A DNA stretch of 53,886 bases from Lacticaseibacillus yichunensis (GTDB taxonomy: Bacteria > Bacillota > Bacilli > Lactobacillales > Lactobacillaceae), in contig NZ_RHOG01000015.1 in assembly GCF_003946405.1 (NCBI RefSeq), forward strand, positions 1 to 53,886, read 5' to 3'. This document shows positions 6,914-49,945 of this stretch, one piece after another. A program made the translations under genes and the position numbers. Each line of letters opens with the position of its first letter. The first letter of the stretch is position 1. The notes under the pieces were generated by a model that saw only the letters and a list, made by a program, of their open reading frames with translations, made no database searches and was not told where the DNA came from.

Positions 6914-7205
6914 GGCACTTGCGAAATGGCGGGACCATCCCGCGGGTTGCCACACCCTGATAGTTGGGTTCCAGCCCGCATGGCGAGGCCATCTAACCGA
7001 CTCGTGCACTCGATGGCCGAGTGCGCCATCAAGCACCCGAGCCAGGTTAGCTGGCTCGCCATCCCGCGGGTTGCCACACCCTGATAGTTGGGTTTCAGCC
7101 CGCATGGCGAGGCCATCTAACCGACTCGTGCACTCGATGGCCGAGTGCGCCACCAAGCACTCGAGCTTGGTTAGCTGGCTCGCCATCCCGCGGGCTTCCA
7201 CACCC
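6914..7205. repeat. Family A hairpin repeats, two units (array R1)
   Basis: The gap between purK and purB is filled by two 96-nt hairpins at 6975-7070 and 7099-7194. Arms read outside-in are CCCGC/GCGGG, ATGGCGAG/CTCGCCAT, CTAACC/GGTTAG, CTCG/CGAG and GATGG/CCATC or CCACC, with a 7-nt loop. A conserved linker (CACACCCTGATAGTTGGGTT) separates the units, and the last CACACCCTGT lies 2 bp before the purB -10 box. Confidence 0.9.
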
Positions 7206-7210
7206 TGTCT

Positions 7211-7216
7211 TATAAT
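7211..7216 (+). promoter_or_regulatory. -10 box of purB
   Basis: Perfect TATAAT, 18 nt before the start codon. No -35 match is visible at 17 bp; that position falls inside the repeat edge. Confidence 0.5.
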
Positions 7217-7233
7217 AGGAGGAGAACACACCA

Positions 7234-8532
7234 ATGATCGATCGATACAGTCGGCCAGAGATGGCCAGTGTTTGGACTGAAGAGAACCGTTACAAGGCAT
7301 GGCTCGAGGTCGAGATTTTAGCGGCAGAGGCCTGGTCGACGCTCGGCGAGATTCCAGAAGCGGATGTCAAAGCCTTGCGGAAAAACGCGTCATTCACCGT
7401 CGATCGCATTCACGAGATCGAGGCCGTGACGCGCCATGACGTGGTGGCCTTTACCCGGACCGTCTCCGAGAGCCTTGGCGATGAGAAAAAATGGGTTCAT
7501 TTTGGCCTGACGTCAACGGATGTTGTTGATACGGCGCAAGGCGCTGTTCTCAAGCAGGCAAACGCGATTTTACGCGGGGACATTGAGGCGTTGCTGACGG
7601 TGCTGGCGCGAGTGGCCAAACAGTACAAGCACACGGTCATGATGGGCCGGACCCATGGCGTGCATGCCGAGCCCACAACCTTTGGCCTGGTCGTTGCGAC
7701 CTGGTACTCCGAGATGAAACGCGATCTGGCGCGCTTCAATGAGGCGGCCGCGGATGTTGAAGCTGGGAAGATCTCTGGGGCGGTCGGCACCTTTGCCAAC
7801 ACGCCGCCAGCTGTCGAAGCCTATGTGTGCGAACATCTCGGCCTGCGCGCCCAAGAGATCTCGACGCAGGTGTTGCCGCGCGATCTGCACGCCCATTACA
7901 TTGAGATCCTTGGCCTGATCGCGACGTCGATCGAACGCTTTGCGCTTGAGGTACGCCACTTGCAACGGACCGAAGTGCATGAAGTCGAGGAACACTTCAA
8001 TCCTGGGCAAAAAGGTAGTTCCGCGATGCCGCATAAGCGTAACCCGATCAGCTCGGAAAACGTGACCGGCTTGGCGCGTGTCATTCGCGGATATATCACC
8101 CCGGCGCTGGAAGACGTCAGCCTCTGGCACGAGCGCGACATTTCCCACAGCTCCGCGGAACGGATGATTTTGCCGGATGCGACCGGCCTGCTGGATTATA
8201 TTTTGCACCGCTTCACGGGCATCATTGACACGTTGGATGTTTTTCCCGACACCATGCTTGCGAATATGCAAAAGACGCACGGCTTGATTTTCAGTCAGCG
8301 TGTGATGCTCAAACTCATCGAGACCGGCCTCAGTCGCGAGGCTGCCTACGACCTTGTGCAACCAAAGACGGCTCAAGCCTGGGATGAGCACCGCGATTTT
8401 CGCCAGTTACTGGAAGCGGATCCGGCTGTCACGGATCGCCTCACGAAGGCTACGCTGGATGATGCCTTCGATTATCATTATCACCTTCGCCATGTCGATG
8501 AGATCTTTGACCGGATTGGGCTTGGCGACTGA
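7234..8532 (+). CDS. purB: Adenylosuccinate lyase
   Basis: Cytoplasmic enzyme that releases fumarate twice in purine synthesis (SAICAR to AICAR, adenylosuccinate to AMP). The 432-aa length is normal. Fumarase/aspartase-superfamily motifs are clear: [15 protein letters not shown] (about 88-102), [16 protein letters not shown] (about 135-150) and the flexible signature loop [11 protein letters not shown] (about 260-270) that holds the catalytic Ser. AGGAGGAG lies 8 nt before the start. It is separated from purK by family A repeats and has its own -10, so it can be transcribed alone. It ends at a hairpin shared with the converging RNase H gene. Confidence 0.97.
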
Positions 8533-8562
8533 TTCCGCTGATCGACGACGCCAGTGGACGCA

Positions 8563-8599
8563 AAGAGGGGTCGGAACGATTTTCGTTCCGGCCCCTCTT
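8563..8599. terminator. Hairpin between convergent purB and RNase H genes
   Basis: AAGAGGGGTCGGAACGA pairs with TCGTTCCGGCCCCTCTT, a 17-bp stem with one G-U and a very short loop. The T tract is weak (TTGATG), but the hairpin serves both strands. Confidence 0.75.
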
Positions 8600-8620
8600 G
8601 ATGTATTCAAAGCTTGGTCC

Positions 8621-9340
8621 TTACAGTGACATGTAGCTGGTTGGCAGGCTCGTTGTGATTGGCAGATCTGCGGGCCAGGTGGTCGTCAACGTCGGGTTGG
8701 GGTGCATCTCACTGGAAACCGCGTTGCGCGCCATTTGGTCGGCCCATTCGTTGAATTTGACCCCGGTGTGGCCCCCGACGTTATGGAAATGGACATCGAT
8801 GCCAGATGCCGCTTGTGGCAGCAATTTTGCATATTCAATGGAAACGGGACTATTTTGGCCCCAGCCATAAGGGGTCGCAACGGTGCCGACATAATCATGC
8901 ACGAGGTCAACGCGGTCATAGCCGTTCGCCTTCGCCCACTGAATGGCGATCAGCGCGGCATTCAGCTCGCCGGTGATCTGGTTGGAGGTAGAAAATGTGG
9001 TGTTGGTGATGGAAAATGCCTGAATCGCGACGCCATCTTTGACCAAGATCACGCCGGAGCCGGAGTTGGCCACGCCTTTTGTGAAGGAGCCATCGATGAA
9101 TGCGAACAGCCCTTTGGTGTGGTCAAAAGGACTGAAGAATTCTTTCAGCTGAGGACTGTTGACGAACTTGTCGGCCTCGGCTTTTTGCGACTGCGTGAAG
9201 CTTTGGATGATCGTGTTGTTCTTGCCATCGCGACTCGTTGCCTTTAATGCCTTGATCTTCGCCTGACGTGCCGGGTTGCTTGGAAAAAGTCCGGTGAAGT
9301 TCTCCCCAGCCAGTGCATAGTAAAATGGTTTCTGTGCCAT
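8621..9340 (-). CDS. Ribonuclease H family protein with extended N-terminus
   Basis: 239-aa RNase H1-type fold, expected to cut the RNA strand of RNA-DNA hybrids. The acidic active-site set is visible: Asp in FAFIDGS (about 80-86), Glu in ITGELNAAL (about 124-132), Asp in DLVHDYVG (about 145-152) and Asp in EWADQMAR (about 197-204), plus the GHTG loop. About 70 residues precede the domain; their YYALAGENFTGLF start resembles, weakly, the viroplasmin-type hybrid-binding module seen in some RNases H. A divergent C-terminal tail follows. GGGAGGTC lies upstream of the start at 9340. The gene is divergent from the DUF1858 gene, with family A repeats between them. Confidence 0.85.
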   Translation of the reverse strand: MAQKPFYYALAGENFTGLFPSNPARQAKIKALKATSRDGKNNTIIQSFTQSQKAEADKFVNSPQLKEFFSPFDHTKGLFAFIDGSFTKGVANSGSGVILVKDGVAIQAFSITNTTFSTSNQITGELNAALIAIQWAKANGYDRVDLVHDYVGTVATPYGWGQNSPVSIEYAKLLPQAASGIDVHFHNVGGHTGVKFNEWADQMARNAVSSEMHPNPTLTTTWPADLPITTSLPTSYMSL

Positions 9341-9471
9341 TGTGTGACCTCCCAGAATTTAACTTGTTTGATGGGTCAATTATACCTGATATTAACTATT
9401 TTTCGAGGATTTTGAACAGTGTCTGCGCGTGCCGCTTTTTTCTTATATCTAGCCTAGTTGCTCGACCATCC

Positions 9472-9735
9472 CGCGCACCTGCGCACCTTAATCGGGCTCC
9501 GGTGCGCATGAGTGAGACGTCTAACTGTGCTGTGCACTCGGTGGCCAAGTGCGCCACCAAGCACCCAGCCCAAGTTAGCCGTTCACTCATCCCGCGCACC
9601 TGCGCACCTTTAACTGGGCTCCGGTGCGCATGGCGGAAGCATCTAGGCAACTCGTGCACTCGATGGCCAAATACGCCATCAAGCGCACGAGCCGACCTAG
9701 CTGTTCCACCATCCCGCGCACCTGCGCACCTTGTT
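9472..9735. repeat. Family A hairpin repeats, two units plus a half unit (array R2)
   Basis: Hairpins at 9502-9601 and 9624-9722. Outer arms are GGTGCGC/GCGCACC in both. The second modules differ but stay paired: ATGAGTGA/TCACTCAT in the first, ATGGCGGAA/TTCCACCAT in the second. The third modules are CTAACT/AGTTAG and CTAGG/CCTAG. Tips are GGTGGC/GCCACC and GATGGC/GCCATC. A stray right arm (CCCGCGCACC) precedes the first unit. Confidence 0.9.
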
Positions 9736-9744
9736 TGTTATACT
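9736..9744 (+). promoter_or_regulatory. Extended -10 promoter for the DUF1858-DUF438 operon
   Basis: TGT plus TATACT gives a TGn-extended -10, 14 bp after the last repeat arm. The leader would be about 15 nt. Confidence 0.55.
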
Positions 9745-9765
9745 ATGGTGAAGGAGCTGATGGTG

Positions 9766-9996
9766 ATGACGAAGATCAGTTTACAGACGCCGGTGCGCGA
9801 ACTTGTTCAAGCGCATCCGGAGGTCGTGCCGGTGATGGTCAAGATGGGCCTGTCCGGGGTGACCGATCCGGCCCTACTCAACACGGTGGGCCGGTTCATG
9901 ACACTTGAAAAGGGTGCCCGCATGAAGCACATCGCGCTGGCTGACTTACTGGCGGCGCTGACTGCGGCAGGATTTGAGGTGGAAAATAATGACTGA
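9766..9996 (+). CDS. DUF1858 domain protein
   Basis: 76-aa protein matching the short DUF1858 helical domain: TPVRELVQAHPEVVPVMVKMG (about 7-27) and MTLEKGARMKHIALADLLAAL. The family often accompanies DUF438 or hemerythrin proteins and is thought to relate to redox or metal-linked regulation, but its biochemical role is not established. Three nearby in-frame starts exist (9760, 9763, 9766); 9766 gives a 9-nt spacing from AAGGAG at 9751-9756. Its stop overlaps the start of the next gene (ATGACTGA), so the two are translationally coupled. Confidence 0.8.
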   Translation: MTKISLQTPVRELVQAHPEVVPVMVKMGLSGVTDPALLNTVGRFMTLEKGARMKHIALADLLAALTAAGFEVENND

Positions 9997-11542
9997 GACA
10001 CATGCGACTGATAGGCAAAAAAAAATCGTGGAAATTCTTCAGATGCTGCACCAAGGCGGCAGTTTTGAGGACGCGAAAAAGATCTTCGACGAGACATTTG
10101 ACGGCGTGGATGTTGCCGAGATCACAGGCGCAGAGCGAGAACTGATTGCCAGCGGCCTGAACCCGATGGAGATTCAAAACCTCTGTAATGTCCACGCGGC
10201 TGTTTTTCGCGGCAAGATCAATGACCATGCAAAAACGCCGATGGAAGAGACCCCAAGCCATCCCGTTCAAGTGATGAAGCTTGAAAACGTGGTGTTGGAG
10301 AGCCTTCTGAACGATGAGCTTTTACCGAGCCTGAAAAAATGGCAACAACAAGACCCCGCACAACCGGCCGGCCCAGATGATGCGATCTTACTCGCCCGGA
10401 TCAATAACGCGCTGGCTGATCTAACAACCATCAATAAGCATTATCAGCGGAAAGAGAATCTGATTTTCCCGTTGATGGACAAATATGGCATCACCGCGCC
10501 GCCCAAGGTCATGTGGGGCGTTGATGACGAGATTCGCGGCTGGATCAAAGACGCCCAACAACTCGCTTCCGCACCGGTCATCCCGGATCGCTATGCAGTC
10601 GAGGCGGCGATTCAAAAAGCGGCCAAAGAAGTCGACGAGATGGTCTTCAAAGAAGAGGAGATCATGTTGCCGATGGTGCTTGAAGTCTTCACTCCAAGCG
10701 ACTGGGGCATGATCGCCAAAGAATCGGACCCGATCGGCTAAACCCTGATCCCAGACCCGCTGCCGTGGCAGCCGACCGCAGAGGAGCTGGCCCAACAACC
10801 AAAACCATCCGCGCTGGCCAAGGAGCTCAACGAAATGGCCCAGCAATTGGCCGATAGCCAGCAATTGGGCTCTGCACGGCAAAATCAGACCTCAGAGCGC
10901 GATGTGATCAATGCCATTCACCAGGATACCCCGATGCCGGTGGCGCCGCCTGAAGTGATGGCAAAATTGCAGGCGGCCAAGGCCGCAGACGCTGGCGCAA
11001 TGACCACTCGTGCGCCACTTGCGGCCGGGGACAGCAACGCCCCGCGCATCAACGTCGCCCGGCCAGCCCAGCAACCAGCCGCCCTAGCCAGCGATGCGAC
11101 ATCTGGCACAGAGGAAGGCCGCATCGCAATCGATGGCATCAACCCAGCCAAGATTCTCTTGCCGACTGGGAGCTTTGACTTGGATCAGCTGACCAACGTC
11201 TTGCGCCTTTTGCCGCTGGACCTGACATTTGTCGACAACACCGACACTGTGCGCTGGTTCTCAGACTCTGGCAGTCGCGTCTTTCCGCGCACCACAGCCG
11301 TGATCGGGCGCTTGGTGCAGAACTGCCATCCGCCAAAGTCTGTGGACAAAGTCGAAAAGATTCTCGCTGATTTTCACAGTGGCAAGGAGACTCACGCCGA
11401 TTTTTGGATCGACATGCACGGTAAAATGGTTTACATCCGCTATTTTGCTATCACCGACCCAAGCGGCCACTATCTCGGCTGTCTCGAAGTCACGCAAGAC
11501 ATCACAGGCATCCGCGCCCTAGAAGGCGAAAAACGCTTGTAG
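9989..11542 (+). pseudogene. DUF438-hemerythrin-PAS sensor protein, interrupted by one in-frame TAA
   Basis: The frame encodes a DUF438 domain (about 10-90), a hemerythrin/HHE-like helical domain (about 95-245; INKHYQRKENLIFPLMDKYG and the EEEIMLPM motif) and, after a linker, a PAS-like domain (about 405-500; LPLDLTFVDNTDTVRWFS to LEVTQDITG). Such proteins are thought to sense oxygen, NO or redox state. Codon 251 (10739-10741) is TAA, and the same frame continues without shift for another 267 codons to 11542. Homologues read GY-T here, so TAC to TAA by one base change is the simplest explanation. Possible states are a nonsense mutant, a sequencing error, or two separate products, the second starting at ATG 10835. 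One hemerythrin His also seems lost (VMWGVDDEIR). The start at 9989 overlaps DUF1858. Confidence 0.8.
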
Positions 11543-11547
11543 CAACG

Positions 11548-11587
11548 AACGGCTTCACAGAGTGCGATAATCTGTGAGGCCGTTTTG
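11548..11587 (+). terminator. Rho-independent terminator
   Basis: AACGGCTTCACAGA pairs with TCTGTGAGGCCGTT, followed by TTTTGCTG. Confidence 0.85.
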
Positions 11588-11738
11588 CTGTATAAGTTGT
11601 GTAAAGCTAGACCGGTTTCTCGCAAGGTTTTGGTTGACCAGGGAGGAAAATCACGTTCTTAAGAATAGTCAAGGTGCGCGTTGTGCATTATTGGGAGGCG
11701 GCATCTAAGTTAATGTGGACTGATTGGGCTGAATATAA

Positions 11739-11866
11739 GGGTAGGCTTTGGCCAGAAATGGCTCAGCCCCTCGTCGTTGTAAGCTTTATGACCGCGACCT
11801 CTGCGGGCATAAAGTTACTTGTCCGCACTACTCCGGTCGCCGGCCGTTTATGGCCAGAGCATACCC
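11739..11866 (+). repeat. Family B multibranched repeat, copy 1 (128 nt)
   Basis: The outer helix GGGTA...GCTTTGGCCAGAAATGGC pairs with GCCGTTTATGGCCAGAGC...TACCC. The inner hairpin is GTAA-CTTTATG-CCGC / GCGG-CATAAAG-TTAC. Compared with copies 2 and 3 it lacks the GC-rich first inner hairpin and carries an extra segment (TGTCCGCACTACTCCGGTCG) before the closing arm. Confidence 0.85.
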
Positions 11867-11926
11867 GGGGCGTTACAGTTTAGTCCAGTCCACCACGCTG
11901 GCTCGCTACCGACCAAGTGCGGTTTC

Positions 11927-11935
11927 TGGTACAAT
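11927..11935 (+). promoter_or_regulatory. Extended -10 promoter of pcrA
   Basis: TGG plus TACAAT. The context TTCTGGTACA-TGG is nearly identical to that upstream of rlmCD (22200-22208), and both lie 60-75 bp after a family B repeat. Confidence 0.6.
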
Positions 11936-11973
11936 GGGAAGGACTCAAACGCGTTTTAGAAAGGACGTTATCA

Positions 11974-14244: not shown

Positions 14245-16278
<2,034 letters not shown>

Positions 16279-16287
16279 GGCTTATTG

Positions 16288-17442: not shown

Positions 17443-17473
17443 TTTATGTTAAACTCATAATGGTTTCGCGCAG

Positions 17474-21782: not shown

Positions 21783-21981
21783 GATTCTGGGCGGAAGGAC
21801 TCGATGTAGACTTCGACAAGACCAGTGCACATCTTTCCTGTTGCATGAAGTCAAACTAGAGTCCGTATAATCTATGTTGGCAACTTGGCCGTTAATGGTG
21901 TTGAGCTGTGACAAAAGAACCTGCAGAATGTGCAAGGGGGGGGCGAGATCTTGGCCGAAGTTGATACGATGAACTACGTGA

Positions 21982-22128
21982 GGGTGGACTATGGCCAGAA
22001 ATGGCTCAGCCCCCTCGTCGGTGTTAGCGGCTCTGCCGCTTACACCGAAAGTGAGCTTTAAGACCGCGCACTTTGCGGGCTTAAAGTCACTTGGGAGCGT
22101 TCCAGCCATTTCTGGCCATAGCCCACCC
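21982..22128 (+). repeat. Family B multibranched repeat, copy 2 (147 nt)
   Basis: The outer helix GGGTGG + CTATGGCCAGAAATGGCT pairs perfectly over 18 bp with AGCCATTTCTGGCCATAG + CCCACC. Inner hairpin 1 is GGTGT-AGCGGC-tct-GCCGCT-ACACC. Inner hairpin 2 is AGTGA-CTTTAAG-CCGC / GCGG-CTTAAAG-TCACT. The 200 bp before it (21783-21981) hold no gene I can support; a TTGCAT/TATAAT pair with a long 19-bp spacer at 21841-21871 is a possible promoter. Confidence 0.88.
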
Positions 22129-22199
22129 GGGCTTTATTACAGACTTGCAAAGCAACACTGCTGTCGAGTCTTCGCCCTCTAGCGTCGTACACGCAATTC

Positions 22200-25303: not shown

Positions 25304-25370
25304 GGCCGCCCCTCCTTTATGAATGCGCTTCGTCAACACAATCATACGCCAAAACGTCGGAAAAAACAGG

Positions 25371-25548
25371 GTGCGGAGCCGAGCGGTTAGGGGCGGGCAG
25401 GTAGTCCGGCCTGGGCGGTTGATGGCTCACTTGGCCATCGGGCGACCAGGACGACTACATGTCCCGCCCCTGCTCGGCGAAGCCCAACTTCAAACAGGGT
25501 GCGGAGCCGAGCGGTTAGGGGTGGGTAGGTAGTGCAGCCTGGGAGATT
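25371..25548. repeat. Family A hairpin repeats, one full and one truncated unit (array R3)
   Basis: The full hairpin at 25378-25478 has outer arms GCCGAGC/GCTCGGC, then GGGGCGGG/CCCGCCCC and GTAGT/ACTAC, and tip TTGATGGC/GGCCATCG. The second unit starts at 25506 (GCCGAGCGGTTAGGGGTGGG) but stops after the 5' half near 25548, so it cannot fold. Orientation is inverted relative to R1, R2, R4 and R6. Confidence 0.88.
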
Positions 25549-31552: not shown

Positions 31553-31589
31553 GAACAACCGGCTTTTCGGCTTGTTCTCATCACGCCAT

Positions 31590-32018
31590 CCCGCGTACCT
31601 GCGCACCCCTAAGCGCTCGGCTGCGCACCCTTTTCAGTCGGGCTCCGCCGAGCAGGGGTGGGACATCTAACTGTCTTGTGCACTCGAGGCGAAGACCGCC
31701 TCAAGCACCCAAGCCAAGTTAGCTGCCCACCCCTAAGCGCTCGGCTGCGCACCCTTTTCAGTCGGGCTCCGCCGAGCAGGGGTGGGACATCTAACTGTCT
31801 TGTGCACTCGAGGCGAAGACCGCCTCAAGCACCCAAGCCAAGTTAGCTGCCCACCCCTAAGCGCTCGGCTGCGCACCCTTTTCAGTCGGGCTCCGCCGAG
31901 CAGGGGTGGGACATCTAACTGTCTTGTGCACTCGAGGCGAAGACCGCCTCAAGCACCCAAGCCAAGTTAGCTGCCCACCCCAAAACCACTCGGCTGCGCA
32001 CCCTTTTTCTATGACATT
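31590..32018. repeat. Family A hairpin repeats, three identical 124-bp tandem units (array R4)
   Basis: Hairpins at 31647-31745, 31771-31869 and 31895-31994, one every 124 bp. Units 1 and 2 look identical; unit 3 differs only at its right edge (CCCCAAAACCACTCGGC). Arms are GCCGAGC/GCTCGGC, AGGGGTGGG/CCCACCCCT, CTAACT/AGTTAG, TTG-GC/GC-CAA and GAGGCG/CGCCTC with loop AAGA or similar. The 25-nt linker (GCGCACCC...GGGCTCC) can itself pair as an alternative hairpin. Confidence 0.93.
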
Positions 32019-35948: not shown

Positions 35949-35989
35949 ACTCTCCCAACTTTCTATTTGTTTGCTTAACTGTACCATAG

Positions 35990-36040
35990 AAAGGGTGCTC
36001 CGCCGACTGGAAAAGGGTGCGCAGGTGCGCGGGATGGTGG
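35990..36040. repeat. Family A repeat fragment (R5)
   Basis: AAAGGGTGCTCCGCCGACTGG and AAAAGGGTGCGCAGGTGCGC match linker and outer-arm sequence of family A, followed by GGGATGGTGGGGG (second arm). No complementary half follows, so this is a remnant. Confidence 0.7.
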
Positions 36041-36377
36041 GGGTAGAAAGCAAACTGCCAATTGCCAGCGACAATCCTTGATCACCTCTACAAAACGCGC
36101 AGTAGCCGGCTTGAACCATTCACGGCGCGAATGTATCGAATATAACGAATATATTGTGAGACCCTGAGGCAAATGGCCCGTAGTCCTTGTTATACAAGCT
36201 CTTCGGGCAATGGGTGAAGATAAACTTCATAATTCGTGGTATTTAATGATTGCGTTTCCGCTAGACTTTGGTAAAATAACGTTAAAAGTTGCTGTAAATG
36301 TAAAGAGTCGGTGTAAAGACAGGACGCGGTCGGCAACTGCTGTCGTCTAGTGTAAGCAACGAAAGTGGGGGAACACT
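36041..36377 (+). other. Gene-free region upstream of the TetR regulator
   Basis: No gene is supported. It is AT-richer than its surroundings, with tandem CGAATATAA/CGAATATAT (about 36137-36153) and repeated TGTAAA words in the predicted tetR leader. These could be regulator sites but are not diagnostic. Confidence 0.4.
36250..36277 (+). promoter_or_regulatory. Promoter of the TetR-family gene
   Basis: TTGCGT, 16-bp spacer, then TAAAAT with a TGG extension. The predicted leader is about 90 nt. Confidence 0.55.
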
Positions 36378-37022: not shown

Positions 37023-37044
37023 GTTTCTCTGGAAAAGCTGGACC

Positions 37045-37316
37045 ACCATCCCGCGCCCCTGCGCACCATAGTTGGGCTGCGCCGAGCAGGGATGCGACGC
37101 CTAACTGGTCCCGTCACTCGGGGCCAAAGTACAGCCCCAAGCGCCAGGCCCAAGTTAGCCGCTCACCCCAAAGCGCTCGGCTCTGCACCGTAGTTGGACT
37201 GCGCCGAGCAGGTCTGAGACAGATAGTCGTCCCAGTCGTTCGATGGCCAAGTGCGCCATCAACCGCCCAGGCCGGACTATTTGCTCAGACCTAAGCGCTC
37301 GGCTCCGCACCCTGTC
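37045..37316. repeat. Family A hairpin repeats, two units (array R6)
   Basis: Hairpins at 37081-37181 and 37203-37303, both with GCCGAGC/GCTCGGC outer arms. The inner modules differ: the first has CTAACT/AGTTAG and GGGGC/GCCCC at the tip; the second has GGTCTGAG/CTCAGACC, TAGTC/GACTA and GATGGC/GCCATC. A stray right arm precedes the first. Confidence 0.9.
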
Positions 37317-40612: not shown

Positions 40613-40613
40613 C

Positions 40614-42880: not shown

Positions 42881-42986
42881 CCTTATCACCTCGCTTCTAT
42901 TATACAGGACAATCTGAGCGGAAAGGGCGGGGAGAGACTGGCAGCTTCCTCTCATCGAACTTCTGAAATCAGTTTGCGGAAGCGCA

Positions 42987-43051
42987 CGGGTGCGCTCCGG
43001 CCAGAAATGGCTGGCGACCGGAGTAGAGCGGACAAACGACTTTGAGCCCGC
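42987..43051 (-). repeat. Family B repeat, partial inverted copy 4
   Basis: The reverse complement matches the 3' half of copy 1, including the TTGTCCGC...TACTCCGGTCGCC segment that copies 2 and 3 lack, and the closing arm AGCCATTTCTGGCCGGAGCG. The 5' half is missing. Confidence 0.78.
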
Positions 43052-43060
43052 ATTGCTGGT

Positions 43061-43254
43061 GGAGGAATTGGATTAGTTCGAACGCTAAACTCTGAATTTG
43101 CGCGTCGTGTTCGTCAGAGTCATGATTGTTCCCTATTAAAATTGCGTCACCCTCTTAACTGGCCAGGCATAGGTTGATAGTCGTTCGAAACCAAAGATAG
43201 GCTTTTGACCGACAGCTCGGCAACTAGAATGGTAAATTCAGATGTTCTATATGA
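43061..43254 (+). other. Gene-free region between two family B copies
   Basis: No open frame or strong promoter is supported. It is AT-richer than its surroundings, and a TTGACC/TAGAAT pair (43205-43230) is too closely spaced (14 bp) to call. Confidence 0.4.
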
Positions 43255-43401
43255 GGGTGGGCTGCGGCCAGAAATGGCTCAGCCCCCTCGTCGTTGTTGG
43301 CGGCTCTGCCGCCTACAACGAAAGTGAGCTTTAAGACCGTGGACTTTACGGGCTTAAAGTCACTTGGGAGCGTTCCAGCCATTTCTGGCCGCGGACCACC
43401 C
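43255..43401 (+). repeat. Family B multibranched repeat, copy 3 (147 nt)
   Basis: Outer helix GGTGG + CTGCGGCCAGAAATGGCT pairs with AGCCATTTCTGGCCGCGG + CCACC. Inner hairpin 1 is CGTTGT-GGCGGC-tct-GCCGCC-ACAACG; inner hairpin 2 is AGTGA-CTTTAAG-CCGT / ACGG-CTTAAAG-TCACT. Same length as copy 2. Confidence 0.9.
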
Positions 43402-43521
43402 GGGGCTTACGTGACGTCAGCACTTTGAACAAAAAAATTTGCCAAGGTGTTAGCGAGTCAAAATCTTTGCCTTTTTTGCCAAACGGGGTTAACCTTTGCA
43501 GCAAACAGGGAGGTGGCTGAA

Positions 43522-43881
43522 ATGGCGCTTGAGACGATCTTGCAGGCAATGGCGGACAACGCAGTGAAAGTGGACAGCAACGATCCGGCTGTGATCGCGC
43601 TGGTCTTTGCGCTGTCCGACTACTGGCCAGTCGCGCGGCCAATCAACCATTTGGCGGCCAAAATGACTCCGGAGCAGTTTCGCGCCGCGGTGGCAAGGCA
43701 ACTACTGGATCCGGCAAACCAGAACATCGAATTGACCCTTAAGCCGACGCATGCGTTGCTGGGCCGCTATTTTGGCGAAGACATGACGGCGGTCCGCGCG
43801 CTATTTTTCGCAAGTGCGCCGTATCGCATTCGCCTCCTTGCGCCGACGCACCTCGTCTTCATCAAGAAGGCGCTGCCCTGA
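43522..43881 (+). CDS. Hypothetical protein
   Basis: 119-aa soluble protein, predicted mostly helical, with no recognised domain (ALETILQAMADNAVKVDSND at the start; YRIRLLAPTHLVFIKKALP at the end). GGGAGGTGG precedes the ATG at 43522; the frame is open further upstream but without a ribosome binding site. It lies alone between a family B repeat and the wecB promoter. Confidence 0.65.
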   Translation: MALETILQAMADNAVKVDSNDPAVIALVFALSDYWPVARPINHLAAKMTPEQFRAAVARQLLDPANQNIELTLKPTHALLGRYFGEDMTAVRALFFASAPYRIRLLAPTHLVFIKKALP

Positions 43882-43939
43882 GCCGCGCAAGAATTCGCCG
43901 CTACAGGTAAAAATCGCGTCGAGCTCGCCCCGCCATCTC

Positions 43940-43948
43940 TGCTATACT
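43940..43948 (+). promoter_or_regulatory. Extended -10 promoter of wecB
   Basis: TGC plus TATACT, about 28 nt before the GTG start. Confidence 0.6.
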
Positions 43949-43976
43949 GAAATCAAACGAAGAACGGGGTGGCAAT

Positions 43977-45143
43977 GTGCAAAAAATCAAAGTGATGACC
44001 GTGTTTGGCACGCGGCCGGAAGCAATCAAGATGGCGCCGGTCGTGCTCGCGCTGAAAAAAGATCCGGCGCATTTTGAAACGGTGGTCACGGTCACCGCGC
44101 AGCATCGCGAGATGCTCGACCAGGTGCTGGCGATCTTTCACATCACGCCGGGCCATGATCTGAATATCATGAAGCAGCGCCAGACGCTTGATGGCATCAC
44201 CAGCAATGTGCTCACCGAGCTGGGCGGCGTGATCGATGCGGAAAAGCCGGACATCATTTTGGTCCACGGCGACACGACCACCACGTTTGCGGCCAGCGTC
44301 GCAGCGTTTTATCATCACGTCGCGGTCGGGCATGTGGAAGCTGGGCTGCGCACCTGGAACAAGAACAGTCCGTATCCCGAGGAAATGAATCGCCAGCTGA
44401 CTGATGTCCTGGCCGATCTGTATTTTGCGCCGACGGATCAAAGCCGGGCGAATCTTTTGCAGGAAAATCATCCCGCGGACCGTATTTTCGTGACGGGCAA
44501 CACCGCCATTGATGCGCTGAAGGAAACGGTGCGGCCGGATTATCACCATGCAGTGCTCGACATGGTCGATCCGGCTAAGCGATTGATTTTGGTGACGATG
44601 CACCGGCGCGAGAACCTCGGCACCCCGATGCGGCGAGTCCTGACGGCGATGCGGGCGGTGATCGAGGCCCATCCGGATACCGAGATGATCTATCCGGTCC
44701 ACCTCAATCCCGCGGTGCAACAGGTCGCGCATGAGGTGCTGGACGGGTCGCCGCGCATTCATCTGATCGACCCGCTGGATGTGCTGGACTTTCACAACCT
44801 GGCGGCTCGCAGCAATTTCATCATGACCGATTCCGGCGGTGTGCAGGAAGAGGCGCCATCGCTTGGCAAGCCGGTGCTGGTGCTGCGCGACACCACGGAG
44901 CGGCCGGAAGGAGTCACGGCTGGTACGCTGAAACTGGTGGGCACCGAGCCGGCCACGGTGACCGCGGCGATGACGCAATTGCTCGATGATCCGGCCGAGT
45001 ATCAGCGCATGGCCAGCGCGAAAAATCCATACGGGGATGGCCACGCGACCGCCCGTATTTTGCAGGCCGTGCAGTATTATTTTGAGCAAGTACCAGAGGC
45101 GCCGCAGCCATTTCGCGGCGGGGTAAAGGGGGAGCAGGCATGA
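43977..45143 (+). CDS. wecB: UDP-N-acetylglucosamine 2-epimerase (non-hydrolysing)
   Basis: 388-aa cytoplasmic enzyme interconverting UDP-GlcNAc and UDP-ManNAc, supplying ManNAc for wall teichoic acid linkage units or polysaccharides. Family blocks: KVMTVFGTRPEAIKMAPVVLAL (about 5-26), VHGDTTTTFAASVAAF (about 94-109), GHVEAGLRTWNKNSPYPEEMNRQL, TMHRRENLG and TDSGGVQEEAPSLGKPVLVLRDTTERPEG near the C-terminus. GTG start at 43977 with GGGGTGG upstream. It overlaps the next gene by 4 bp (ATGA), so the two are translationally coupled. Confidence 0.96.
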   Translation: MQKIKVMTVFGTRPEAIKMAPVVLALKKDPAHFETVVTVTAQHREMLDQVLAIFHITPGHDLNIMKQRQTLDGITSNVLTELGGVIDAEKPDIILVHGDTTTTFAASVAAFYHHVAVGHVEAGLRTWNKNSPYPEEMNRQLTDVLADLYFAPTDQSRANLLQENHPADRIFVTGNTAIDALKETVRPDYHHAVLDMVDPAKRLILVTMHRRENLGTPMRRVLTAMRAVIEAHPDTEMIYPVHLNPAVQQVAHEVLDGSPRIHLIDPLDVLDFHNLAARSNFIMTDSGGVQEEAPSLGKPVLVLRDTTERPEGVTAGTLKLVGTEPATVTAAMTQLLDDPAEYQRMASAKNPYGDGHATARILQAVQYYFEQVPEAPQPFRGGVKGEQA

Positions 45144-46045
45144 CATACGCAATGATCGGCACATGGGCGATGGCGCTGGGTGGCGTGCAGCGCGCCGCAG
45201 CGACACTGGCCGCTGATGGCACCGCGGGGGATGCGGTGGAGACCGCGATTCAGGTGATCGAAGACGATCCATCGTTGACCTCGGTCGGCTATGGTGGCCT
45301 GCCGAATGAACAGGGCATGGTCCAGCTGGATGGGGCCTACATGAACGGGGACAATTTTCAGATCGGTGCCGTCGCCGGTGTGGAAGATGTCGCAAGCCCG
45401 ATCGCGTTGGCTCGGCTACTGGCCAAGGAGCGGGTCAATAATTTTCTCGTCGGCACCGGCGCTGAGGCTTATGCGGATCAGCACGGCTTGGCGCGGAAAA
45501 ACATGCTGACAAGTGGCGCCAAGTCCGCTTGGCAAAAACGGCAGGTGGAAGTTGGCCAAGGCGGGCGGCTGACGCCATATGACGGCCATGACACAGTCGG
45601 CATGATCGCCCTGGATGCGCGCGGCCACATCCGCGTTGGCACCTCGACATCCGGGCTATTCATGAAGCACGCCGGGCGGGTCGGCGATTCCCCGCAGCCC
45701 GGCAATGGCTTTTACGCCGACAGCGCGGTGGGGGCGGCCGCCGCAACAGGCCTGGGCGAGGATCTGATGAAGCGGCCGCTGTGCTTTGAGATCGTGTCGC
45801 TGATGGCGCAGGGGATGCCGGTGCAAGCCGCGATGGACAAGGCCGTTTACACCTTCATCGATCAGCTTCAGGCGCGCAATGGGGCCGTGGGCGAATTTTC
45901 CTATATCGCGCTGGATCATCAGGGCAACTTCGGCGTGGCAACAAATGTTGAGTTCCAGTACGCGGTCTTCAGCGATCGCGTGGCGCCGCGGCTGTATCTT
46001 GCGACGCCGGGCAACGACCACCATGTCACCATCACGCCGGCATAA
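45140..46045 (+). CDS. Glycosylasparaginase/plant-type asparaginase family (Ntn hydrolase)
   Basis: 301-aa member of the T2 N-terminal-nucleophile family, which hydrolyses GlcNAc-Asn (glycosylasparaginase) or beta-aspartyl bonds. The self-cleavage motif is GHDTVGMIALD, with predicted nucleophile Thr152. RVGDSPQPGNGFYAD and GAAAATGLGEDLMK carry the usual substrate-binding residues. No signal peptide, so it is cytoplasmic. Coupling to wecB suggests a link to amino-sugar handling, with GlcNAc-Asn as the more attractive substrate, but this is inference. Confidence 0.88.
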   Translation: MTYAMIGTWAMALGGVQRAAATLAADGTAGDAVETAIQVIEDDPSLTSVGYGGLPNEQGMVQLDGAYMNGDNFQIGAVAGVEDVASPIALARLLAKERVNNFLVGTGAEAYADQHGLARKNMLTSGAKSAWQKRQVEVGQGGRLTPYDGHDTVGMIALDARGHIRVGTSTSGLFMKHAGRVGDSPQPGNGFYADSAVGAAAATGLGEDLMKRPLCFEIVSLMAQGMPVQAAMDKAVYTFIDQLQARNGAVGEFSYIALDHQGNFGVATNVEFQYAVFSDRVAPRLYLATPGNDHHVTITPA

Positions 46046-46138
46046 ATCATTTTCAGACAACGGGGGCGCAGCGATGCGTCCTTTTTTCTTTGGTCAGGCT
46101 GGCAAAAACGGCTGGCGACTGAATTCTAGGCCCCGCTT

Positions 46139-46147
46139 TGATATAAT
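46139..46147 (+). promoter_or_regulatory. Extended -10 promoter of the YihY gene
   Basis: TGA plus perfect TATAAT, 29 nt before the start codon. Confidence 0.6.
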
Positions 46148-46176
46148 TAACTTAATTAGGGGAAAGGAGCGGGCGT

Positions 46177-47235
46177 ATGGCCAAGAAAAAGGCAAATCGG
46201 CACGCAAAAAAAACCGTTCAACGGTTGACGCCGGCGCAACAGGCGGCAATCAAGGACGGCCGCGTGCCGCTGGCTGACATGAAGCTGCCGCGCAAAGTCA
46301 AGTTCCGTGAATTTCTGAAAATGGCGTTCACGCGCATCAATGACGCGCAGATCGGGGCCGCGTCAGCGAGTTTGGCCTATTATGCACTGCTTTCACTTTT
46401 TCCCATGCTGATCACAGTGGGGAACTTGCTACCAGTATTCGGGCTGAGTTACGAAAATATCAGCGGCTATCTCACGCAGGTGGTGCCAAGCGATATCATG
46501 AAATGGATCGACCCGATCATCTCAAACCTGCTCAACAGCACCAGCGGCGGCATCCTTTCGATCGGGGCCGTCGCCACGTTGTGGGCGGCGGGGCTCGGCA
46601 TCAGCGGGCTGAAAAATGCGATGAACCGCGCGTATGGGGTGACCTCGTCCTCGAATTACCTGATCCAGCGGCTGCTGGCGATGGTGTCGATGTTCGTCTT
46701 GATCTTCCTGCTGGGCTCCGTCATGATCGCGTTTGCGTTTGGCCGCCAGTTCCTGGAATGGCTGGGGCCAATCGTCGGTCTGTCGGATGCCTGGCTGAAC
46801 ACCTTCAATGCGTTGCGTTGGCCCGTCACGGTGGCGGCGTTGTTGATCGTGATCTTGTTCATCGATTACTTTTTGCCAAACGTTCGCGTGAAGTTCCGGA
46901 CGATCTTGCCGGGCACCGCGTTCACCTCGGTAGGCTGGTTGCTGTTGGCGCAGGCGTTTTCCTGGTACATGAAGCAGTTCGGCACCCGGTATAACTCCTA
47001 TGGGACGATTGGGACGTTGATCGTGTTATTGCTGTGGTTGAATTTTTCGGCGATGATGCTGCTGATCGGCGTGGTGCTCAACGCCGTGATCGCAGAATAC
47101 TTCACAGGTGAGTTGCATCGTAGCCGCGGCAAGGTCCATGACTTTGTGCGCAAACGCGCAACACATTTTCGCACCCAGCGCGATGCCCGCGCGGCCGAAC
47201 ATGAAGTCGAAGAAACAACATCGCTCAACGAATAA
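46177..47235 (+). CDS. YihY/BrkB-family inner membrane protein
   Basis: 352-aa polytopic membrane protein of the YihY/virulence-factor BrkB family. It has a basic cytoplasmic N-terminus (MAKKKANRHAKKTVQRL), then about six transmembrane segments beginning with AASASLAYYALLSLFPMLI (about 61-79). The family block FRTILPGTAFTSVGWLL and NSYGTIGTLIVLLLWLNFSAMMLLIGVVLNAV precede a charged C-terminal tail. It was once misannotated as RNase BN; its true role is unknown. AAAGGAGCG precedes the ATG. Confidence 0.93.
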   Translation: MAKKKANRHAKKTVQRLTPAQQAAIKDGRVPLADMKLPRKVKFREFLKMAFTRINDAQIGAASASLAYYALLSLFPMLITVGNLLPVFGLSYENISGYLTQVVPSDIMKWIDPIISNLLNSTSGGILSIGAVATLWAAGLGISGLKNAMNRAYGVTSSSNYLIQRLLAMVSMFVLIFLLGSVMIAFAFGRQFLEWLGPIVGLSDAWLNTFNALRWPVTVAALLIVILFIDYFLPNVRVKFRTILPGTAFTSVGWLLLAQAFSWYMKQFGTRYNSYGTIGTLIVLLLWLNFSAMMLLIGVVLNAVIAEYFTGELHRSRGKVHDFVRKRATHFRTQRDARAAEHEVEETTSLNE

Positions 47236-47237
47236 AA

Positions 47238-47283
47238 GAAGCCTGTCGCATGCGGGTTAGAGATCTCATGCGACAGGCTTTTC
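47238..47283. terminator. Bidirectional terminator
   Basis: AAGCCTGTCGCATG pairs with CATGCGACAGGCTT, between the convergent YihY and peroxidase genes. Confidence 0.9.
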
Positions 47284-47330
47284 GATTCGGTTGCGTGAGG
47301 GCGTCTAACTGCTGTGGGTGCCGCGCTTGG

Positions 47331-47807
47331 TTAGTTTGCGAGCAGCTTGGCGATGTCTGGGGCGATCTTATCCGGCGTGGTCTTCGGCGCGTAACGCTTG
47401 ACCACATTGCCGTTTTGGTCGACCAGAAACTTGGTGAAATTCCACTTGATCGCCTTGCCAAGCGCACCCGGCGCGGCGTCCTTGAGCTCGTCGAACAGCG
47501 GCAGGGCATCGTCGCCGTTGACGCTGACCATGCTGTGCATCGGGAAGGTCACGCCATACGTGGTGCGACAGGCCTCCGCTGCGGCTTGCCCGTCTGCCAA
47601 CTCTTGATGGAATTGATCGGACGGAAAGCCCAGCACGACCAGCCCTTGGTCCTTGTATTCCTGATATAGCGCTTCAAGCCCGGCAAACTGCGGAGAAAAG
47701 CCACACTTGGTCGCGGTGTTCACGATCAGAAGCGGATGACCCGCATATTTGGCAAGCGTATAGTCCGTGCCATCTTCGAGCGTCACTTGTTCATCATAGA
47801 TCGACAT
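47331..47807 (-). CDS. Glutathione peroxidase-family thiol peroxidase
   Basis: 158-aa Gpx-family peroxidase that reduces hydroperoxides. The peroxidatic Cys35 lies in NTATKCGFSPQ, where selenoenzymes carry Sec. GLVVLGFPSDQF (about 55-66) and IKWNFTKFLVDQNGNVVKRYAP (with Trp and Asn of the catalytic tetrad) are conserved. Bacterial members usually depend on thioredoxin rather than glutathione. A second Cys (EACRTTYG, about residue 79) could act in resolution. The start at 47807 has only a weak AAGGCG. A TATAAT on the minus strand (47837-47832) offers a -10 box. Confidence 0.93.
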   Translation of the reverse strand: MSIYDEQVTLEDGTDYTLAKYAGHPLLIVNTATKCGFSPQFAGLEALYQEYKDQGLVVLGFPSDQFHQELADGQAAAEACRTTYGVTFPMHSMVSVNGDDALPLFDELKDAAPGALGKAIKWNFTKFLVDQNGNVVKRYAPKTTPDKIAPDIAKLLAN

Positions 47808-47912
47808 CTCTTTCGCCTTCTTTCTGTCTTTATTATACACTTTCGTTTTGTAAGCGTGATAGTTGTCAGCGCTAGACAAAAATAGACCGCCGCAGCGATC
47901 TTTTTTGCCCAA

Positions 47913-48371
47913 TTACATGGCAGCTTGTTTGTCGACCAAGTCCTTCGTGAATTTTTCAAGTGCGGTGATGTCATCGGCTTCTGGGGCGAGGTCAATCTTG
48001 ACGTTCGTCGCGCCTTGCGTGGCACCGGTCTCGGCAAACGCCTTGGCGAAGTCGTCGACACTTGTCGCAAAGGCGTCGTAGAATTTATCGCCACTGCCGC
48101 AGCAGCCGTACACTTTGCCGGTCAGGTCCAACTCTTTGAGATCCTCGTAAAAATCGACCGCTTCGTCGGGCAAGACGCCGTCGCCAACATCCGAATACGT
48201 GTAAGTTGCGACGACGCAGATATCCGCATCCTCAAAATCCTCGGCGACGGCCTGCGAAACTTCGGTGACCGTGGTGTCGACGCCATATTTTTGCAATTCG
48301 TCCTCAACGATGCCGGCGATCTCTTCGTTGTTGCCGGTCATGCTGGCATAGACGATCTTTGCCACTACCAT
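47913..48371 (-). CDS. Flavodoxin
   Basis: 152-aa FMN-binding electron carrier. The phosphate loop is VYASMTGNNEEIA (about 7-19); TYTYSDVGDGVLPD (about 57-70) and VYGCCGSGDKFYD (about 87-99) form the isoalloxazine-binding loops. Very acidic, as usual for flavodoxins. GGAAGG precedes the start at 48371. It lies upstream of the peroxidase on the same strand, 105 bp apart; the peroxidase has its own -10, so linkage is uncertain. Confidence 0.94.
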   Translation of the reverse strand: MVVAKIVYASMTGNNEEIAGIVEDELQKYGVDTTVTEVSQAVAEDFEDADICVVATYTYSDVGDGVLPDEAVDFYEDLKELDLTGKVYGCCGSGDKFYDAFATSVDDFAKAFAETGATQGATNVKIDLAPEADDITALEKFTKDLVDKQAAM

Positions 48372-48435
48372 GTGCTAACTTCCTTCCATCCTTGCGTTTT
48401 GTCCTAAGCATTATAGCAGACAAGCGGCGGGAAAA

Positions 48436-48853
48436 GAAAGGGTGCGGAGGTGCGCGTTTAGGGGTGGGCAGGTAGTGCGGGCTAGGCGGTTGATGGCGCA
48501 CTTGGCCATCGAGCGACCGGGCCGACTACATGTCCCACCCCTGCTCGGCGGAGCCCAACTAGAAAGGGTGCGGAGGTGCGCGGGATGGTGGGGCAGCTAG
48601 CTTGGCTCGGGTGCTTGGTGGCGTGCTTAGCCACCGAGTGCACGAGACAGTTAGATGTCCCCACCATGCGCACCGGAGCCCGACTAGAAAGGGTGCGGAG
48701 CCGAGCGTTTAGGGGTGGGCAGGTAGTGCGGGCTGGGCGGTTGATGGCGCACTTGGCCATCGAGCGACCGGGCCGACTACATGCCCCCCCTGCTCGGCGG
48801 AGCCCAATTAGAAAGGGTGCGGAGGTGCGCGGGATGGTGCCCCGCCTCGCCAC
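48436..48853. repeat. Family A hairpin repeats, three units plus half unit (array R7)
   Basis: Hairpins at 48449-48549, 48575-48674 and 48700-48798. The middle one has GGTGCGC/GCGCACC outer arms and GGATGGTGGGG/CCCCACCAT. The third has GCCGAGC/GCTCGGC, with a damaged right second arm (CCCCCCC). The first has a GGTGCGC left arm but a GCTCGGC right arm, which do not pair well, so it looks like a hybrid of two subtypes. A trailing left half (GGTGCGCGGGATGG) follows. Orientation matches R3 and R8. Confidence 0.9.
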
Positions 48854-48874
48854 CCTGTTTTCAGTTGCATCTTG

Positions 48875-48883
48875 TGTTACACT
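48875..48883 (+). promoter_or_regulatory. Extended -10 promoter of map
   Basis: TGT plus TACACT, about 23 bp after the last repeat sequence. Confidence 0.5.
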
Positions 48884-48935
48884 AAGTTTTGAAAATATTG
48901 AAGCAGAATGCCATTTTAAATAGGAGATGCGAATT

Positions 48936-49730
48936 TTGATCACATTAAAGTCGCCGCGTGAAATTGAGGGCATGGCAAAGTCCGGCGCAATCTTGGCCGG
49001 GATGCATAAGGCCGTCGCAGAGATCATCAAACCAGGGGTGTCGAGCTGGGAGATTGAAAAAGTCGGCCGTGAATATATTGAAAGTCACGGGGCGATTCCC
49101 GCGGAACTTGGTTTTGAGGGGTACAAATACGCCACCTGCGTCTCGATCAACGATGAAGTGGCGCATGCGGTGCCGCGCAAGGGTCTGTTTTTAAAGGAAG
49201 GCGACATCGTGGCGGTTGATACCGTCGTCGACTTCAACGGCTACTTCAGCGACTCCTGCTGGACATACGCGGTCGGTCAGATCTCTGAAGAGAAACAGAA
49301 ACTGATGGATGTCACCAAGAAGGCGCTGTATCTTGGCATCGATCAGGCCGTTGTCGGCAACCGGCTCGGCGATATCGGGTATGCGATTCAGCACTATACC
49401 GAAGATGAAAATGGGTACGGGGATGTCCGCGACCTGATCGGCCATGGCATTCAGCCCACGATGCACGAAGCGCCAAACGTGCCGCATTATGGCGAGCCCG
49501 GCCACGGCCTGCGTTTGAAGGCGGGCATGACCATCACGATCGAGCCGATGATCACCACCGGCACTTGGAAGATCAAGGCCAAGCAGGTGCCAAATGATGA
49601 TTGGGAATATTATGTGACCGCCGATGGTTCTCCGTGCGCCCAGTACGAGCACACGCTGGTCATCACCGATGACGGCCCAAAGATCTTGACCAGTCAGGAT
49701 CCGGAGTTTGACGCAAAATATCTCCTGTAA
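48936..49730 (+). CDS. map: Type I methionine aminopeptidase
   Basis: 264-aa dinuclear metalloenzyme that removes the initiator Met from new proteins. Metal ligands lie in VDTVVDFNGYFSD (two Asp; about 86-98), GHGIQPTMHEAPNV (His; about 168-181), IEPMI (Glu) and YEHTLVIT (Glu). An ATG at 48927 directly abuts AGGAG (48922-48926) and is too close. The in-frame TTG at 48936 lies 9 nt after the box and gives the usual MITLKSPREIE N-terminus, so it is preferred. Monocistronic, with a terminator. Confidence 0.96.
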   Translation: MITLKSPREIEGMAKSGAILAGMHKAVAEIIKPGVSSWEIEKVGREYIESHGAIPAELGFEGYKYATCVSINDEVAHAVPRKGLFLKEGDIVAVDTVVDFNGYFSDSCWTYAVGQISEEKQKLMDVTKKALYLGIDQAVVGNRLGDIGYAIQHYTEDENGYGDVRDLIGHGIQPTMHEAPNVPHYGEPGHGLRLKAGMTITIEPMITTGTWKIKAKQVPNDDWEYYVTADGSPCAQYEHTLVITDDGPKILTSQDPEFDAKYLL

Positions 49731-49735
49731 AAGAG

Positions 49736-49764
49736 GCGGGTCATCCCAGCGATGACCCGTTTTG
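49736..49764 (+). terminator. Rho-independent terminator after map
   Basis: GCGGGTCATC pairs with GATGACCCGT, then TTTTGTGT. Confidence 0.85.
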
Positions 49765-49769
49765 TGTGT

Positions 49770-49945
49770 CAGGGTGTGGAGGACCGCGGGATGGTCGAGT
49801 AGCTAGATTGGCTTGGGCGCTTGAGGCGGTCTTTGCCTCGAGTGCACGAGCCAACTAGATACCTCGACCATGCGGGCCGGAACCCAACTACAAAAGGTGC
49901 GGCGACCCGCGGGATGGCGGGGCAGCTAGTTCAGGCTGGAATCTT
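49770..49945. repeat. Family A hairpin repeats, one full and one truncated unit (array R8)
   Basis: Hairpin at 49784-49876: CCGC/GCGG, ATGGTCGAG/CTCGACCAT, CTAG/CTAG and GAGGC/GCCTC at the tip. The second unit (49896-49938) has only its 5' half (ACCCGCGGGATGGCGGGGCA, CTAG) and ends abruptly near the mvaK2 promoter. Confidence 0.87.

Follow-up and report, generated by a model that had tools for sequence, protein, structure and literature searches.

What keeps a long hairpin paired while the letters of its stems change from copy to copy, and is this shape carried by DNA or by RNA? The question is raised by a contig of Lacticaseibacillus yichunensis (NZ_RHOG01000015.1 of assembly GCF_003946405.1, positions 1 to 53,886; 56% GC), the whole of which is referred to as the window. 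It contains arrays of a hairpin repeat, whose 14 complete copies at seven loci and one fragment (R5, 35987-36045) are located as claimed in a preliminary description made from the letters of the window, and the arm sequences quoted there are present in its units. That a shape-conserved interspersed hairpin repeat exists as an entity seems to us nearly certain. As to its nature we favour, at a probability of roughly 40%, a hairpin element that is non-autonomous and exchangeable and whose recognition by a putative factor depends on the fold of one strand, most likely in the form of single-stranded DNA.

Fold and strand of the repeat

Each unit is composed of a hairpin of ~98 nucleotides (nt) and a conserved spacer of ~26 nt, giving a repeat period of ~124 nt. 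Complete units of the window are 119-126 nt long and follow one another head-to-tail, with an additional partial unit at one end of each array (Table 1). The size of about 100 nt given initially is therefore right for the hairpin and too small for the repeating unit. We call B the strand reading AAGGGTGCGGAG...GGAGCCCAACTA, which is the better-folding one and the one listed here; the opposite strand is A. On strand B the unit forms one long hairpin of 44-47 pairs. Its base is a GC.GC foot, followed by a 7-bp outer arm that ends in GC, a bulge on one side, the second arm and a near-invariant UA/UA step; above these stands a long upper stem, in which U·G and G·A are preferred at certain spots and which is closed by a small loop.

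Pairing was evaluated in 13 of the 14 window units (31757-31880 was omitted, its aligned row being equal to that of 31633-31756). In a 47-pair fold 93.5% of 603 cells are paired versus 79.1% in shuffles, 27 of 47 pairs are altered on both sides (14.8 in shuffles) and the covariation score is 0.465 (0.203 in shuffles). None of 500 shuffles attained any of these three values, 8 of 500 attained the number of extra pair types, and slid controls were paired in 32-40%. Wider sets behaved similarly, with 94.6% of cells paired and 37 of 47 pairs changed on both sides in the best 150 of 186 units of the L. yichunensis genome, 95.6% and 43 of 44 in 54 distinct rows of the genus, and 91.6% and 42 of 44 in 57 rows from outside the genus; alignments A3-A8 were fitted to covariance models, which biases pairing counts upward, and rows of one genome are related. 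In the 57 outside rows extra pair types did not exceed the level of shuffles, 254 of 500 of which attained it. Thus the stem letters vary while pairing is kept, as the preliminary description proposed, and comparison with shuffles revealed neither lack of covariation nor loss of pairing as frequent as its retention, the two outcomes that it had set as refuting. Its notion of compensated change stands in so far as many pairs are altered on both sides, but part of this is due to swaps of whole hairpins rather than to base-by-base compensation. Counts of covarying cells overstate independent events, because such swaps make up part of the same-site difference.

The two strands are not equivalent. 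In 11 of the 14 window units folded, z-scores of strand B ranged from -4.3 to -9.6 and none of 200 shuffles attained any unit, while for strand A they ranged from -1.6 to -6.9 and unit 37069 was attained by 13 of 200. Strand B folds better than A in all 11 window units tested, in 49 of 53 distinct rows of genus relatives (the exceptions include two reverse-strand matches of the same copies and one partial) and in 51 of 57 rows outside the genus. The wobbles point in the same direction. Stem columns of 147 distinct copies of the L. yichunensis genome (from the best 150 of 186) hold 479 G·U against 55 A·C on strand B; the ratio is 147 to 12 in 50 copies of relatives within the genus and 101 to 23 in 57 copies outside it, where purine-purine mismatches also prefer B (112 G·A or A·G versus 14 C·T). 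The wobble count of alignment A3 omits rows L033:1500+, L057:1500+ and L068 as well as duplicates. Of the own-genome wobbles 372 fall into seven upper-stem columns, and the remaining columns give G·U:A·C of 107:46 (~2:1). The fold belongs to strand B and is not strand-neutral like a plain cruciform. Selection for a folded RNA or DNA cruciform, suggested initially, is consequently retained as a constraint on the fold, seen in pairing and in the in-place rates given below, and given up for a strand-neutral cruciform.

Constraint and turnover at orthologous sites

Lacticaseibacillus mingshuiensis (PurB 99%) served as the comparison species. By both flanks 65 of 98 arrays of L. yichunensis were mapped to it, and 61 of these 65 sites are occupied there; mapping drew on 59 L. 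mingshuiensis stretches, all around repeats, which is the probable cause of 33 arrays remaining unmapped. Two of the unmapped loci were searched in full: at L147 the array at 1802 is reduced to remnants in L. mingshuiensis, and the third array of L168 falls at contig ends. The in-place test was made on 56 unit pairs that are reciprocal best matches with an identity of 85% or more, a cut that removes swapped hairpins. Paired sites changed in 194 of 4998 cases (3.9%) as compared to 182 of 1755 (10.4%) for unpaired ones (P 8e-22), and inner flanks, excluding segments of <75% identity, in 481 of 5790 (8.3%).

The character of changes within these orthologous pairs was informative as well. On strand B, transitions of Watson-Crick pairs to GU outnumbered those to AC (95 versus 43, P 1e-5). 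Gene-orientation classes were assigned by a crude heuristic based on open reading frames (ORFs), which missed purK; all four classes are represented, and 12 of 96 classified arrays overlap a crude ORF call, the repeat being otherwise intergenic. The GU:AC ratio was 22:10 in class '++' (P 0.05), 24:10 in '+-' (0.02), 13:7 in '-+' (0.26), 22:9 in '--' (0.03) and 14:7 in arrays overlapping ORF calls (0.19). Single-class ratios are weak (P 0.02 to 0.26) and it is the agreement across classes that counts; the same direction in every class is the most decisive result of this study. Arrays antisense to both neighbours changed in 3.4% of paired and 8.6% of unpaired sites with GU:AC of 22:9, arrays sense to both in 4.1% and 13.3% with 22:10. 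Because the same B-strand bias is present in all classes, including arrays antisense to both neighbours, an ordinary hairpin of sense mRNA is disfavoured.

A close rival of recognition as single-stranded DNA is that strand B works as RNA, either as a transcribed small RNA or as a processing or stability element, for instance one cleaved by RNase III, a role that has been suggested for NEMIS, ERIC and BOX, and we regard this as quite possible. It would agree with preferences for G·U and G·A that occupy fixed positions in the upper stem, with conserved loop and end motifs and with the frequent location of the unit close behind a co-directional upstream gene (class medians 1-47 nt by crude gene calls). 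In two Secundilactobacillus species the unit either overlaps the stop codon of purB or comes directly after it, and on a plasmid a B-sense array lies between co-directional genes for phosphotransferase system (PTS) component IID and DUF956. However, antisense orientation to both neighbours occurs as often as sense orientation (27 versus 18 arrays in L. yichunensis, 24 versus 25 in L. mingshuiensis), the antisense arrays show the same direction of bias and the same in-place constraint, 17 of 96 arrays begin directly behind a terminator-like site, and beyond the seven upper-stem columns G·U exceeds A·C merely about twofold.

The classes bear also on the assumption that units are bidirectional terminators or insulators acting in transcripts of neighbouring genes in either orientation. 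The occurrence of all four classes, strong folding of both strands and a T-run seen by eye behind the hairpin at some A-strand ends are in line with it. Yet selection in sense transcripts predicts wobbles of strand A in '--' arrays, where changes to GU exceed those to AC on strand B too (22 versus 9); T-runs appear by eye unconserved across the family; and the plasmid element resides between co-directional PTS genes (IIB/IIC and IID/DUF956), the second site being preceded, by eye, by a terminator-like hairpin. We therefore consider this role unlikely.

Long near-perfect hairpins are hotspots of quasipalindrome correction, and arm-to-arm template switching might maintain complementarity with no selection at all. 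Double changes that keep pairing do exist (23 of 31, both comparison directions counted). Such correction should make double changes common, but there were 31 of them versus 229 single changes at Watson-Crick pairs (95+43+91), and it predicts neither the bias of G·U over A·C nor the conserved bulges, which leaves this explanation highly improbable.

Constraint in place coexists with turnover of arrays. The number of units is equal in 23 and different in 36 of 59 orthologous arrays of the two species. The entire hairpin is replaced at 4 of 9 orthologous sites having single copies; it is 66-75% identical there between flanks that are 91-99% identical, and the replaced-hairpin copies at these four sites have 84-96% matches elsewhere in the L. 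yichunensis genome. Similar pictures were found further away. The plasmid PTS IID/DUF956 site occurs in three states among strains (two units with a mini-hairpin, one unit, the mini-hairpin alone), the plasmid PTS IIB/IIC site contains two different hairpins or a remnant between near-identical flanks, and at a Levilactobacillus site two species have a common hairpin and the third has another one at the same position. In the window, the 5' outer arm of unit 48438-48561 mismatches its own 3' outer arm while neighbouring units are matched, and arm types seem to be reshuffled between neighbouring units of this array.

Ends of arrays are asymmetric. The B 5' end is sharp. Judged by motifs, 59 of 96 arrays have a partial copy behind the B 3' end and 1 of 96 has one ahead of the 5' end; by nhmmer these numbers are 21 versus 2 of 95, and 14 versus 1 of 98 in L. 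mingshuiensis. In 17 of 96 arrays the first unit starts directly behind a terminator-like site as compared to 90 of 1920 random positions, a weak control as random positions include genes, so that terminator targeting by the repeat is suggestive only. Array 8 of the window is such a case, beginning immediately behind a terminator-like hairpin with a T-run downstream of map (NCBIfam). In 10 of 96 arrays GATTC stands between the T-run of unrelated terminators and the first unit (TTTTTGATTC|AGGGTG), for instance at L164:1802, L169:713, L176:17911, L178:17648 and L187:1802. At L345 a match to the T-box leader (29-466, 93.5 bits at a cut-off of 93) extends over a unit (201-324) that looks as if inserted into the leader.

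What may recognise the folded strand

Based on these data one can assume that a putative trans-acting factor recognises folded strand B by its shape. The recognised form would most likely be single-stranded DNA, in replication gaps or as an extruded hairpin, and possibly RNA. The factor may nick, copy or exchange the folded strand, which would preserve the shape and the short motifs at the ends and let stem letters drift. Present copies would be mostly resident sites turning over by slippage, deletion and exchange, as 61 of the 65 mapped arrays are still occupied in L. mingshuiensis. Single-stranded DNA is favoured because gene context is irrelevant, B 5' flanks look by eye too varied to supply each array with a promoter and whole hairpins are exchanged.

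Several observations weigh against an element of this kind. Constraint in place suggests that resident copies have a function, something a purely selfish element could do without. Five sites that appear empty were inspected and none revealed an insertion with target duplication: at four of them spacers or arms persist, which looks like deletion, and L192 looks clean, without an obvious duplication. Better preservation of 5' units is not significant (38:23, P 0.08; 30:23, P 0.33 in L. mingshuiensis). A search limited to two enzyme families yielded no candidate enzyme: Y1_Tnp (PF01797) had no match in the repeat-rich genomes G001, G006, G011 and G014, and reverse transcriptase (PF00078) had none in G000 (L. 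yichunensis), G001, G006 and G011, being present in others, e.g. G014, so that neither family tracks the repeat. G·T is more stable than A·C in DNA as well as in RNA, and an excess of G·U is expected for single-stranded DNA and RNA alike, so that stability alone cannot separate them. Nor was there a replication-direction bias, with 58 versus 62 arrays among the matches listed for two genomes (125 rows of G027 and G005, five tandem neighbours dropped, G020 excluded, origin assumed at base 1). This is unhelpful to the single-stranded DNA reading, since transposons of the IS200/IS605 type are reported to target the lagging strand template (PMC6006769).

Three particular routes were considered and rejected. 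Mobilisation by RAYT is rejected on account of the missing Y1_Tnp in the four genomes named above, which carry 50, at least 59, 55 and 54 copies, respectively; PF01797 has 2 matches in the L. yichunensis genome. Retrotransposition was suggested by the sharp B 5' end and 3'-truncated partials, which correspond to 5' truncation of strand A, and is unlikely as the L. yichunensis genome has no PF00078. Targeting of a replication strand is unsupported by the 58 versus 62 count.

Integron attC sites are imperfect single-strand hairpins of variable sequence that are recognised by shape. The comparison concerns only the way of working, and there is a difference: units lying ~124 nt apart leave no room for cassette genes. 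Extending the shape-recognised exchangeable element to order-wide hairpin cassettes, in which the shape of one DNA strand is read by attC-like logic without cassette genes or a known recombinase, is a bolder proposal that we hold to be doubtful.

Distribution, inventory and relation to known repeats

Two covariance models were used, R1 and a broader R2 built from 55 rows. In the training set of R2 (A6), L003:1500 is a reverse-strand row and L005:1870 a partial; E-values of matches are rough. The search of the genome and its relatives, proposed in the preliminary description, gave at least 150 units by R1 and at least 186 at E<=1e-10 in L. yichunensis (the window and 52 array regions, 492 kb), organised in 98 arrays with six units at most, of which two consist of partial units only. 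R1 matched 25 of 30 Lacticaseibacillus genomes, own included, and none of 30 genomes outside the genus. This zero is a limit of the model, because R2 found copies in two of them, G031 and G037. R2 matched 37 of 121 Lactobacillaceae across 17 of 40 genera and 13 of 198 genomes drawn from Lactobacillales, nine of which belong to four other families; at E<=1e-5 it gives 137 matches in one genome of the genus and at least 150 in another. Outside the genus R2 rewards generic long hairpins too, and homology there rests on end, bulge and loop motifs. Copies examined retain ends of approximately AGAGxGxGGAG ... GGAGCxCGTTTA, the GCG-x-TTAG bulge, the UA step and a small loop, and for this reason are, judging by these motifs, more than generic hairpins.

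With a copy of G027 as a query 15 plasmid records of Pediococcus and Lacticaseibacillus were found, one of them merely a 39-nt piece; the window query and a copy from another genus matched none of the plasmid records, and two query copies gave no match in phages. A first genome search by pattern found the repeat in two places, no more than the reversed control, and was dropped. In L. nasuensis (L070, 5600-6000) purB is preceded by a unit whose position and orientation match those of array 1 of the window, and a second related-looking hairpin, unreported by the model, adjoins this unit.

Within the window, strand B corresponds to the minus strand in arrays 1, 2, 4 and 6 (6961-7207, 9490-9733, 31635-32005, 37069-37314) and to the plus strand in arrays 3, 7 and 8 (25364-25490, 48438-48810, 49770-49890).

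Table 1. Units, partial units and fragments of the hairpin repeat in the window (strand column: orientation of B; fold energies in kcal/mol)
Feature	Positions	Strand	Evidence
Complete unit, array 1	6961..7083	-	R1 115.7 bits; fold -75.6 (B) vs -62.8 (A)
Complete unit, array 1	7085..7207	-	R1 112 bits
Partial unit closing array 1, 3'-truncated in B orientation	6935..6958	-	sequence
Complete unit, array 2	9490..9610	-	R1 125 bits; fold -70.0 (B) vs -58.8 (A)
Complete unit, array 2, almost perfect hairpin	9611..9733	-	R1 127.2 bits; fold -81.9 (B) vs -63.0 (A), z -9.6
Partial unit closing array 2	9453..9489	-	repeat families and sequence
Complete unit, array 3	25364..25490	+	R1 130.7 bits at 25367-25490
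Partial unit closing array 3	25491..25548	+	nhmmer 25496-25548
Complete unit, array 4	31635..31756	-	R1 124.1 bits
Complete unit, array 4, aligned row identical to 31635-31756	31759..31880	-	R1 124.1 bits
Complete unit, array 4	31883..32005	-	R1 114.1 bits
Partial arm remnants closing array 4	31580..31632	-	sequence; repeat family D6
Isolated fragment R5	35987..36045	+	repeat families D10, D13; sequence
Complete unit, array 6	37069..37190	-	R1 116 bits
Complete unit, array 6	37191..37314	-	R1 121.4 bits
Partial unit closing array 6	37033..37068	-	repeat family D15; sequence
Complete unit, array 7, outer arms mutually mismatched	48438..48561	+	R1 120.1 bits; fold
Complete unit, array 7	48564..48686	+	R1 130.6 bits
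Complete unit, array 7	48689..48810	+	R1 121.2 bits
Partial unit closing array 7	48812..48842	+	sequence
Complete unit, array 8	49770..49890	+	R1 113.1 bits
Partial unit closing array 8	49892..49926	+	sequence

The window harbours also a second repeat family, MITE-like (miniature inverted-repeat transposable element), with a branched fold and GGCCAGAAATGGCT-type ends, at 21968-22136, 43241-43409 and 11733-11867 and as a fragment at 42982-43052. The same site in L061 is without the 11733-11867 copy, and L168:12465-12671, which is related to this family, has ~20 matches in L. mingshuiensis.

Among Rfam models (release 15) tRNA alone reached the gathering score in the window; at 67-433 (+) the cspA thermoregulator model matched with E 8.9e-12, below its gathering score. 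In 40 further loci the hairpins themselves match just sub-threshold microRNA or plastid models, and RNase P (L311) and the L20 leader (L347) adjoin units. No description of this repeat family was found in searches of the openly licensed literature. The initial remark that no named family is known agrees with both sources, and the family, which occurs across lactic-acid bacteria and is represented in the window by one local branch, is apparently undescribed.

Like REP, REPIN and BIME elements, the units are intergenic high-copy hairpins. TnpA-REP recognises hairpins in a strand-specific manner. REPs are reported to show alternative complementary stem letters with frequent GT pairing, and their stems measure 5-13 bp and carry GTAG or CGTC as a tag (PMC3733652). 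The first two features are found here too, a common property insufficient for membership, whereas the stem has 44-47 pairs per unit and four repeat-rich genomes have no Y1_Tnp match; by these two differences the repeat is not a REP. ERIC, NEMIS/Correia, RUP and bcr1 are described as non-coding, short and intergenic with a long foldable structure (PMC3733652, PMC10969869), and our units are likewise non-coding, short, dispersed and foldable. Such MITEs differ in having target duplications as well as terminal inverted repeats that match a transposase, of which none was demonstrated here, the GC.GC foot helix being a very short terminal inverted repeat. They are also recognised by sequence, whereas here the fold is kept in units as little as 60-75% alike within the genome or at orthologous sites.

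EFAR/Efa-1 of Enterococcus faecalis are intergenic palindromic repeats of the same order. EFAR integrates into stem-loops, which is comparable to arrays located behind terminator-like sites. Matches in four other families of Lactobacillales might mean that our repeat belongs to a named streptococcal or enterococcal family, EFAR/Efa-1 or S. suis BOX-type, extended to Lactobacillaceae, and the S. suis modules boxE and boxF, which average 115 and 133 nt (PMC3049150), are of suitable length. BOX elements of S. pneumoniae and S. suis are also modular, with repeated central modules and strong predicted RNA folds (PMC3049150). However, they are built of A, B and C modules instead of one repeated unit with a spacer, and Efa-1 is described as a pair of adjacent stem-loops with a listed length of 163 (PMC2267715), while here both the window folds and every aligned set show a single ~100-nt hairpin. 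Judged by descriptions, Efa-1 (which we infer to equal EFAR) differs from our repeat and the S. suis boxes probably do; membership in any of them is very unlikely.

Hairpin repeats are usually defined by sequence, and a family defined by shape therefore escapes detection. A covariance model rather than BLAST is the suitable detector, and similar families are possible in other orders. Unit number differs between close relatives and copies adjoin sugar-transport genes on plasmids of food bacteria, which may make the repeat a practical marker. If the fold of strand B is kept regardless of gene direction, recognition at the DNA level would become separable from a function at the messenger level, a distinction that is open for REP-like repeats.

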